DNA of 35,471 nt from Acidipila sp. (GTDB lineage: Bacteria; Acidobacteriota; Terriglobia; Acidiferrales; UBA7541). This document shows positions 29,213 to 34,331 of this stretch, piece after piece. The position numbers and the translations under genes were made by a program. The notes beneath the pieces are model-generated. The model was not told where the DNA came from and made no database searches. It saw only the letters and a program-made list of their open reading frames with translations. The stretch's first letter is position 1, and each line of letters begins with the position of its first letter. The DNA lies in contig JAAFGT010000041.1 in NCBI GenBank assembly GCA_010365215.1, positions 1 through 35,471 of the forward strand. The letters run 5' to 3'.

Positions 29213-29554
29213 CTACGCGCGCGCCGAGCGCGCCACGATTTCCGCCAGCCGCCAGCGCTTGAGCTTGGAAAGCGGCCGGGTTTCCACGATGCGCACTTTG
29301 TCGCCGGTGCGCGCCTCGCCATTTTCGTCGTGCGCGTAGAATTTCTTGGTGATGCGCATGGTGCGCTTATAAAGATTGTGCTGCACGGTGCGCGTCACCT
29401 TGACCACGATGGTCTTCTGCATCTTGGCGCTGGTGACGAAGCCTACCTTGGTCTGCCGCTGGTGGCGTTCGGGCTTTTGGCCGGCGTCGTGCTTGCCCGC
29501 TTCGTGCTTGCCCGCGTCGTGCTTGCTGGCGTTCTTGGCTGCTTCATTTTCCAT
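29213..29554 (-). CDS. rpsQ: 30S ribosomal protein S17 with repeat-containing N-terminal extension
   Basis: The product is 113 residues against about 85 usually. The core begins near residue 34 ([20 protein letters not shown]) and continues with [16 protein letters not shown] and [17 protein letters not shown], typical of S17. The first 33 residues are Lys/His/Ala/Gly-rich and contain [15 protein letters not shown] in tandem. S17 binds 16S rRNA early in assembly. Its start lies inside the rpmC 3' end, an 11-base overlap, so coupling is likely. Its own Shine-Dalgarno sequence is within rpmC. Confidence 0.96.
29486..29530 (-). repeat. Three 15-bp tandem repeats in rpsQ
   Basis: Three consecutive 15-base units (29486-29500, 29501-29515, 29516-29530) differ at a few bases. 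On the minus strand they encode repeats of the five-residue KHDAG type in the N-terminal extension of S17. The same period is seen at the start of the matrixin gene and in the unknown gene at 31796-32245. Confidence 0.8.
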
Positions 29555-31443: not shown

Positions 31444-31788
31444 TTACGCCTTGGGGCCCGACGGCGCCGGAGCGCCCGAAGAGCCGCCGCTCGGAGCCGG
31501 CGCCGATCCTGCCGCCTTCTCCAGAGCTACCTTCACCGAATGGCCTTTAAAGGTGCGCGTGGGCGCGAATTCGCCCAGCTTGTGTCCCACCATCTGCTCG
31601 GTGATGTACACGGGAATAAACTTCCTCCCGTTGTGCACCGCAATGGTGTGGCCCACCATTTCCGGGGTGATGGTGGAGCGCCGCGACCACGTCTTGATTA
31701 CTTTCTTGTCGTTGCGCACGTTCAGCGCTTCGAGCTTGGCGTTCAAGTGCGCGTCGATAAACGGGCCTTTCTTGACTGACCGCGGCAT
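31444..31788 (-). CDS. rpsS: 30S ribosomal protein S19 with Ala/Pro-rich tail
   Basis: The product is 114 residues, about 20 longer than usual. [20 protein letters not shown] is the family start, and [20 protein letters not shown] with [20 protein letters not shown] completes the core. The tail after about residue 90 is Ala/Pro/Gly/Ser-rich ([17 protein letters not shown]). S19 contacts S13 in the 30S head. The ATG at 31788 was chosen because a longer in-frame reading to 31902 has no family similarity. GAGGG lies directly upstream, overlapping the end of the preceding unknown gene's spacer. Confidence 0.97.
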
Positions 31789-31795
31789 GCTCCCT

Positions 31796-32245
31796 CTATT
31801 CCGCCACGCGGCGCAGTTTGATCCACTGCGCGCGGCGCATTTTTCTAAATCCACGCACGGGTCCAGGAACCCGGTGCGATACCGTGCAGAACGGGCAGAC
31901 AAATCGCGTGCCCAGCGCGGTGGAAATCTTCTCTACAATCACCGCCCAACCCGGCTTGCAGAACCGGAAGGGCACCTGCTCGGGCGGCTGTGCCACGGCC
32001 CGCACAACCGGCTTCAATGCTTTGGCCGGCGGGGCCGCCACGACGCTTTTGCGCGCCGAAATTTTCCCCGCGGAAATTTTCGCCGGCGCAATTTTCCGCT
32101 CCGCAGCGCCATGCGCGGAGCTGCTGCGCGCCGAACTCCGGCTGGCACCGCTCCGGGTCGAGCTGGTACGTGCTGAGCTGCTGCGTGCTGAACTGCCTAG
32201 AGCCCTCCGGCGACTTGCCGGCCGTGCCGATCTGCTCGCACTCAT
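31796..32245 (-). CDS. Unknown basic, cysteine-containing protein inserted between rplB and rpsS
   Basis: The product is 149 residues and is not recognised. Residues 1-66 are low complexity and very basic: Ser/Ala/Arg-rich, then the five-residue repeat [15 protein letters not shown]. Residues about 90-149 look globular: [20 protein letters not shown], then VCPFCTVSH and a very basic end ([16 protein letters not shown]). Cys96, Cys117, Cys120 and His124 could bind a metal. The ATG has AGGA seven bases upstream, the C-terminal half shows GC-rich third codon positions like its neighbours, and the stop lies seven bases before rpsS. An RNA- or ribosome-binding role is inferred only from charge and location. 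Few S10 operons carry a gene here. Confidence 0.65.
32058..32096 (-). repeat. 15-bp-period repeats in the unknown S10-operon gene
   Basis: GAAATTTTC at 32058-32066 and 32073-32081 and GCAATTTTC at 32088-32096 recur every 15 bases. In the coding frame (minus strand) they give AAA-ATT pairs, producing the [15 protein letters not shown] series. They stand out in otherwise GC-rich sequence. Confidence 0.75.
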
Positions 32246-32348
32246 CTGTCGTCCTTTCCCTGAAACCCGCCGCGCCAGGCTTAGTGGGGTTTCTCCGTCC
32301 GCAGACGGGATTTTCCTGTGACTTCCGCTGTGACTTGCGCCGCAGCCG

Positions 32349-33170
32349 CTACGGCTTCCGCCTCTGCACTACATACTTATCCGCCCGGTGACTACGCCGC
32401 GTCTTCGCGCCCAGGGTGGGAAAGCCCCAGGGCGTCTGCGGATGGTTTCCCTTCACGCGGCCTTCTCCGCCGCCGTGGGGGTGGTCTACTGGATTCATGG
32501 CTACGCCGCGCACCGTGGGCCTGCGGCCCATCCAGCGCGTCTTGCCGGCTTTGCCGTACGTCACGTTTTCGTGGTCAAGGTTGCCGATCTGCCCGACCGT
32601 GGCGATGCAGTCCAGATGGAATTTCCGGATTTCGCCGGAAGGCAGCTTGATCAGCGCGATGTCGCCTTCTTTCGAGAGCAACTGCGCCGACGAGCCCGCC
32701 GAACGCACCACCTGCCCGCCTTTTCCTGGAAACAGCTCCAAGTTGTGAATCGGCGTGCCCGGAGGAATCAGGCGAATGGGCAGAGCGTTGCCCGGCAAAA
32801 TGTCCGCGCCCGCACCGCTTTGCACGGTCATGCCCACTTCAAGCCCCACGGGATGGAGGATGTAGCGCTTCTCGCCATCCACGTAGTGCAACAAAGCGAT
32901 GCGCGCCGAGCGGTTGGGGTCGTATTCAATCGACGCCACCTTGGCGGGGATCCCCGTCTTGTCGCGGCGGAAATCGATGCGCCGGTACTGGCGCTTGTGC
33001 CCGCCACCGCGATGCCAGATGGTGATTTCGCCGTGCGAGTTTCTGCCGCCCGAGCGCTTCTTCGGCTCCAGCAGCGATTTTTCCGGCGTCTCGCGGGTGA
33101 GATCGCTCTTATCGAGAGCGGTCAGAAAACGCCGCGATGCCGTGTATGGTTTAAAACTCTTTAGCGCCAT
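32349..33170 (-). CDS. rplB: 50S ribosomal protein L2
   Basis: The product is 273 residues, normal length. It has [20 protein letters not shown] at the start, [20 protein letters not shown], and the C-terminal signature [15 protein letters not shown] with [18 protein letters not shown]2 is required for subunit joining and peptidyl transfer. The ATG follows AGAGGG. The 103-base gap to the next gene is the longest in the S10 part of the operon and contains two short hairpins (32262-32293 and 32295-32308) without T-tracts. Confidence 0.98.
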
Positions 33171-33503: not shown

Positions 33504-34331
33504 CTAATCCTTCTTCGCTTTGGGTGCTTTGGCCTTCTTTTTCTTTGCCGGAGCTTTCTCCGCTTTCGCGGGCTTGGCTTTTGCCGCGGGCTTGGCGGCT
33601 TTCTTTACCGGCTTCTTCGGAGCAGGCTCAATCTGCACGGTCTGCGAAGGGGCGGCAGTGCGCGTGTCCGAGCGGCCTTCGGCGCGCGCTTCGCCGCGCT
33701 TATGCGGCTCGAGCGATTCGGAGAGCCGCAGCGCGGCGTCCTTGGATACCAGCAGGCGGTCGTGCAGCAGCAGGTCGTAGGGCCTGAGCTCTTGCGGTGC
33801 CACCATTTTGGTTCCATGCAGGTTGCGGCTGGCCAGCTCCAGATTACGGTTGCCCGGTTTTTCGACAATCAGGAAAGACTGGCTCTGGCCATTCAACTTC
33901 CCCAGCGTCTCGCGGAAAATCTTGGTGCGGTGCGATTCGAGCGCCCAATCTTCCACCACGGTTAATTTCTGTTCTTCCAGTTTCGCGGTGAGCGCCGAAC
34001 GCAGCGCGCCCAGCAACACTTTGCGCGGCAGCCGGTAAGAGTAATCGCGCGGCTTGGGGCCATGGACGATGCCGCCCTTGCGCCAGATCGGCGAGCGGAT
34101 CGAGCCCACGCGCGCACGGCCGGTGCCTTTCTGCTTCCAAAGTTTTCGGCCTGAGCCGGATACTTCTCCGCGCCGCTTGGTGCTGTGCGTGCCCGCGCGT
34201 TCCCCGGCCAGCTGCCAGCGTACCGCTTCGTGCAGCAGGTGAGGCTTGACCGCCACGGCAAACACCGCGTCAGACAGCTCGACCTGTCCCACCGTCTTGC
34301 CTTCCAGATTCACTACGTCAACACTCGCCAT
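33504..34331 (-). CDS. rplD: 50S ribosomal protein L4 with Lys/Ala/Pro-rich tail
   Basis: The product is 275 residues, about 65 longer than usual. The core has the L4 features GTHSTKRRGEVSGSGRKLWK and QKGTGRARVGSIRSPIWRKG, with PKPRDYSYRLPRKVLLGALR. After about residue 210 the sequence is low complexity and basic (KKPVKKAAKPAAKAKPAKAE and KKKKAKAPKAKKD). L4 lines the exit tunnel and in some bacteria autoregulates the S10 operon. It lies 32 bases after rplC and three before rplW. Confidence 0.97.
   Translation of the reverse strand: MASVDVVNLEGKTVGQVELSDAVFAVAVKPHLLHEAVRWQLAGERAGTHSTKRRGEVSGSGRKLWKQKGTGRARVGSIRSPIWRKGGIVHGPKPRDYSYRLPRKVLLGALRSALTAKLEEQKLTVVEDWALESHRTKIFRETLGKLNGQSQSFLIVEKPGNRNLELASRNLHGTKMVAPQELRPYDLLLHDRLLVSKDAALRLSESLEPHKRGEARAEGRSDTRTAAPSQTVQIEPAPKKPVKKAAKPAAKAKPAKAEKAPAKKKKAKAPKAKKD

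Follow-up and report, generated by a model that had tools for sequence, protein, structure and literature searches.

A conserved gene between rplB and rpsS in one Acidobacteriota family, a candidate clade-specific ribosomal protein

The composition of the ribosome and the gene order of the S10 operon are close to textbook constants. What, then, is the 450-base reading frame that separates rplB from rpsS in an Acidipila sp. contig (JAAFGT010000041.1 of assembly GCA_010365215.1), the whole 35,471 nucleotides of which form the window analysed here? The original prediction had seen in it a lineage-specific gene for a metal-binding, RNA-associated protein of the ribosome or of its assembly. The frame is present as described, with 149 codons and a stop, and begins with ATG on the minus strand, the strand that also carries rplB and rpsS; read on the plus strand, positions 31796-32245 are broken by stops. 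The elements of the locus are listed below.

32349-33170, minus strand: rplB (uL2), the upstream neighbour (NCBIfam TIGR01171, 415.5 bits)
32263-32282, minus strand: AAGCCTG-GCGCGG-CGGGTTT, a possible hairpin in the leader ahead of the start (seen when a 44-nt stretch was folded)
32252-32255, minus strand: AGGA ribosome-binding site of the inserted gene (read from the sequence)
31796-32245, minus strand: inserted gene, 149 aa, ATG at 32243-32245 and TAG at 31796-31798 (sequence, open reading frame list and orthologues)
31976-32245, minus strand: N-terminal tail, residues 1-90, basic and of low complexity, differing in length among genera
31799-31975, minus strand: conserved C-terminal domain, residues 91-149, with a putative Cys3His metal site (alignment A1)
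31958-31960, minus strand: Cys96 codon (Cys at 79/79 loci)
31886-31897, minus strand: Cys117-Pro-Phe-Cys120 codons (both Cys at 79/79 loci)
31874-31876, minus strand: His124 codon (His at 79/79 loci)
31789-31795, minus strand: 7-nt gap between the inserted gene and rpsS, with an AGGGAG site (read from the sequence)
31444-31788, minus strand: rpsS (uS19), the downstream neighbour, ATG at 31786-31788 (NCBIfam TIGR01050, 148 bits)

The frame has its own AGGA site ahead of the ATG, and its stop does lie seven bases before rpsS, the gap reading AGGGAGC on the coding strand. NCBIfam models confirmed 10 further genes in the window cluster (uS14 type Z, uS8, uL6, uL18, uS5, uL30, uL15, bL36, IF-1 and uL29), the remaining genes between uL3 and bL17 being assigned by eye only. 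The claim that codon use in the second half resembles that of the neighbours was partly right: GC3 is higher in the C-terminal part (0.73) than in the N-terminal part (0.67), but stays below the 0.78–0.83 of rplB, rpsS, rplV and rpsC.

Is the frame conserved? A search with the C-terminal 63 residues returned 95 genomes of the order and found the domain in 77 of the 89 that belong to the window's own family (f1), and in 0/6 genomes of the sister families f2 and f3. In the 12 f1 genomes without the inserted gene, rpsS was not found either (0/12), so that these assemblies probably lack the locus. In the 76 other genomes, orthologues are 66–87% identical to the window's domain. At all 79 loci of the 77 genomes (a count that leaves out L061, which occupies the same place as L032) the gene stands between rplB and rpsS, within an interval of 330–673 nt (median 404). 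Between its stop and rpsS lie 7 nt at 35/79 loci and 4–10 nt at 64/79, with an overall range of 0–126 nt; since 14 of the 79 have a gap of 16–126 nt, tight coupling to rpsS is not universal. Two genomes (G036 and G075) hold the rplB-insert-rpsS locus in two copies each (L056, L057, L058 and L059); both show about 4% contamination and the bins may be mixed, and the protein of L059, from G075 of genus g11, resembles by eye the version of genus g2.

In a high-GC genome, an N-terminus of low complexity and the lack of a recognised homologue might point to a frame left open by chance in a spacer. The original prediction had named as marks of such a frame an rplB-rpsS interval without a conserved frame in relatives, or a dN/dS of about 1. 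Instead, the frame is conserved at 79/79 loci, and the C-terminal domain shows dN/dS values far below 1: 0–0.055 for the 15 closest pairs above a dS of 0.05, and a median of 0.17 when all 474 pairs with dS of 0.05–1 are taken (52 distinct domains from 56 loci; pairs with dS of at least 1 or below 0.05 excluded). Mean entropy at codon positions 1, 2 and 3 of the domain is 0.42, 0.30 and 1.20 bits, and Cys96, Cys117, Cys120 and His124, at the positions originally claimed, are invariant. The chance frame is thus refuted, its remaining probability being negligible: the inserted gene is a real gene under purifying selection. Constraint on the domain also fits a level close to that of ribosomal proteins, with a mean pairwise identity of 0.79 against 0.86 for uS19 across 47 distinct loci. 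Over the same loci, distances in the domain follow those in uS19 (Mantel r 0.64; 0/2000 permutations as high), as expected if the gene has been passed on vertically along with the operon.

How far does the gene extend beyond the family? Twelve outside genomes in which rpsS was found (five f2, one f3, five others of the same class and one other of the same phylum) lack the inserted gene, and rplB and rpsS are spaced there by 0, 0, 3, 3, 3, 3, 4, 5, 5, 8, 23 and 130 nt. Searches with a 32-row profile, scoring at most 15 candidates per genome, covered 399 genomes of the class and 396 of the phylum, two partly overlapping samples. The class search returned the 77 family members and two short matches among the 310 genomes outside the family; the phylum search returned the window's own and one short match elsewhere. 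Matches in G104 and G130 (E 7e-4, 21 positions) and in G432 (E 7e-4, 37 positions) were rejected, as they lie on contigs other than that of rpsS, and no convincing homologue outside the family was found in either sample. A scan of 84,980 species with exact peptide patterns from the window protein, which yields the matches listed and no proof of absence, included among them a Candidatus Acidiferrales bacterium (L002) and an Acidobacteria bacterium (L003) that carry the gene; NCBI places Candidatus Acidiferrales in the class Terriglobia. Within the genomes searched, then, the gene is restricted to one family, and the predicted lineage specificity was upheld.

Databases of known families and mobile elements gave no relative. 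The window's 63 residues had no match in phages or plasmids at E 0.1, and an origin from either was rejected on that ground; two matches in viral contigs reduce to segments of 23 residues, not spanned by any frame of at least 60 aa on the same strand, and were taken as chance. Nothing significant was found for members of A1 in Pfam (best E 0.015), nor for the gene in PHROGs (best E 0.065), NCBIfam (best E 0.57–0.59) or Rfam (best E 0.68, below gathering). Because no Pfam or NCBIfam model matches significantly, automatic annotation has no name for the gene, and no paper among the matches listed in the literature searched, mostly open-access, names it. Sequences of the PDB gave nothing significant either; the top match, at E 0.052 over 20 positions, was eL43 (60S L37a), a zinc ribbon whose likeness to the inserted protein is a CPFC knuckle. 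But eL43 has two CxxC knuckles where the inserted protein has one, and the match does not place the protein in that family. The weak matches for which a position was given (eL43 and a Pfam zinc-ribbon family) both take in this knuckle.

The protein is small and strongly basic (149 aa in the window), as would be expected of a lineage-specific ribosomal protein. Its tail, taken to start at the last candidate ATG and to stop just short of the first conserved Cys (residues 1–95 in the window), is 38–95 aa long among 51 distinct sequences; L036, which lacks a candidate start codon and whose open frame includes an ambiguous residue, was excluded. The N-terminus had been described as basic and of low complexity, and so it proved: the tails consist chiefly of Arg, Ala, Pro, Val and Lys, carry a median net charge of +15 and hold, among 2668 residues, 32 Glu and 0 Asp as acidic residues. 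Orthologues mostly begin M-(R/S/T)-A-(T/S)-R after a GAGAG-like site, this site being mostly GAGAG or a similar purine run at the same distance as AGGA in the window. The C-terminal domain has a consensus of 63 residues in alignment A1, and its four potential ligands, present at 79/79 loci as one Cys, a CxxC pair and a His, suggest a single metal site, putatively of the Cys3His type. Structure prediction from three-row alignments (the window, L002 and L003 sequences only) gave models too poor to use, with mean pLDDT of 47.4 and 58.4 and strands only. A Foldseek search with the better of these poor models (58.4) found no structural match (best E 3.1); its list included six 80S chains of 80–84 residues at E 3.3–8.4, which we take to be eS27 and to which we give no weight.

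A metal site of this kind raises the question of whether the gene replaces a known zinc ribosomal protein (bL31, bL32, bL33, bL36, uS14 or bL28) or is a diverged copy of one. The nearest candidate is bL31 (rpmE), a small ribosomal protein of metal type with a similar spacing, C-x20ish-C-x2-C, that is, one Cys followed by CxxC. However, bL31 has a CxC...CxxC four-Cys site, whereas the inserted protein has one Cys, the CxxC and a His as putative fourth ligand, and the canonical bL31 is encoded elsewhere in the same genome. The inserted protein matched no bL31 family profile in Pfam or NCBIfam, and hhalign gave the bL31 and inserted-gene profiles a probability of 0.1%, from shallow alignments (Neff about 1.7). 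Moreover, bL31 is present in 84/89 family genomes, and a four-Cys motif search could read it in 28/30 loci (27 of the family and one of f3). Homology to bL31 was rejected on the profile comparison and on this normal presence. The other candidates are also accounted for: uS14 type Z and bL36 lie within the window, and bL33, bL32 and bL28 occur in 10/10 tested family members, as does bS21 (the bL33 match of G034 is cut by the contig end). Outside the family, a search for bL33 found none in G005, which belongs to a sister family and lacks the inserted gene. As the family members tested have lost none of the zinc ribosomal proteins that were looked for, replacement of a lost one was rejected as well, and we hold a divergent copy or replacement to be very improbable. 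Because all those examined are retained, the product looks like an addition.

What could such an addition be? From the four invariant Cys and His residues, the basic tail, the operon position and a conservation like that of ribosomal proteins, we infer ribosomal and metal-binding roles, and with them co-transcription, a bound metal (presumably zinc), rRNA binding, and membership of the ribosome and one of its subunits. On this evidence the product is probably a ribosomal protein peculiar to this clade, or else a protein in tight association with the ribosome. Operon position is no proof of ribosome membership, because infA shares the window cluster; secY and adk are also common in this cluster of ribosomal protein genes. 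The same genetic and sequence evidence would serve a ribosome-assembly factor, a protein of transient subunit maturation that binds pre-rRNA during assembly and then leaves, and a metal-binding knob with a basic tail suits such factors too. Yet the site among genes of structural ribosomal proteins, with a mostly short spacing to rpsS, and a conservation near that of ribosomal proteins slightly favour a stoichiometric component, and we consider an assembly factor rather unlikely.

For the ribosomal protein that we favour, the following course can be proposed. (i) The gene would have arisen, or been captured, a single time in the ancestor of one large Acidobacteriota family of soil bacteria (class Terriglobia; members called Candidatus Acidiferrales), and then become fixed between rplB and rpsS. 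(ii) Its product would be made together with uL2 and uS19, by virtue of the shared operon orientation and the close spacing to rpsS. (iii) Cys96, Cys117, Cys120 and His124 would hold one metal ion, presumably zinc, that stiffens the compact C-terminal domain. (iv) The domain would dock on rRNA by a conserved surface (a stretch of 11 residues, then RRAQW..LRRV) and the basic tail, like those of known ribosomal proteins, would thread into rRNA. To the whole of this proposal, a new zinc-binding component of the ribosome core, gained once in the family ancestor, encoded between the genes of uL2 and uS19 and perhaps under the control of a hairpin before its own gene, we give an even chance.

Lineage-limited bacterial ribosomal proteins that were overlooked until ribosomes were solved are described in two reports, bL37 in PMC5876184 and bS22 and bL38 in PMC10618245. 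Like them, the inserted gene is small, unannotated or overlooked, and restricted to certain lineages; it differs in its putative metal site, its S10 operon position and a ribosome presence that is presumed, and the likeness is one of description. PMC10764239 infers that rRNA can capture a new protein if it is small, positively charged and unfolded, a proposed route for a small basic newcomer into the ribosome that it gives for msL1/msL2 of microsporidia, an unrelated organism that we liken to ours by description only. The same paper calls the way in which ribosomes acquire proteins unknown. A gene fixed in the S10 operon of one family, and absent from the sister families examined, offers a before/after comparison for the gain of a ribosomal protein; if the reading is true, it would be a well-bounded case, within one order, of a bacterial ribosome gaining a protein. 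The gene could also be a family-level marker.

Is the gene controlled by its leader? The product might be a regulatory RNA-binding protein for the S10 operon or for translation more widely, acting perhaps through a hairpin before its own start. In genus g2, 13 leaders, chosen by eye from 15 listed (33 g2 loci in all), can form a hairpin just before the ribosome-binding site in which 85.5% of cells are paired; its covariation score was reached by 1/500 shuffles. Four of its nine pairs have changed on both sides, but 24/500 shuffles match that number, and the RNAalifold covariation term for g2 leaders is small (−0.46). Single-sequence folding gave a mean z of −0.63 over 51 leaders against 0.00 over 152 rplB windows, with mixed values within and outside the genus: z is below −2 in several g2 leaders and in L003, L030, L038, L062 and L063 outside g2, and near 0 in several other g2 leaders. 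Leaders of differing sequence in g2 are able to fold alike.

In other genera a GC-rich block stands at the same place. It occurs in the leaders of 33/79 loci and 10/13 genera (in g10 and g11 at only some loci), a count made with a pattern that itself fixes most bases and so cannot measure their conservation. In the window the block (32266–32279) falls inside the possible hairpin; a different 50-nt stretch of the window leader takes another fold, no better than shuffles (z +0.96). At 27 of the 33 loci the block is open and in frame with the gene, and at six it is out of frame; it may be coding, perhaps as an alternative N-terminus (MNPARR...), or it may be an RNA element, perhaps an autoregulatory leader. 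The leader data hint that part of the family has a regulatory element. Autoregulation would be expected from a ribosomal protein as well. We think it improbable that the product is primarily a regulator.

Low-complexity sequence in this operon is not confined to the inserted gene. At its end, the gene assigned by eye to uL4 (33504-34331, minus strand) has a long tail rich in Lys, Ala and Pro, and uS19 carries a terminal tail of Ala, Pro, Ser and Gly (31444-31530, minus strand). Thus, low-complexity extensions are found on other ribosomal proteins of the window operon as well. A uS17-like frame (29213-29554, minus strand, also by eye) has a repetitive N-terminal extension, seen in a string of 14 residues.
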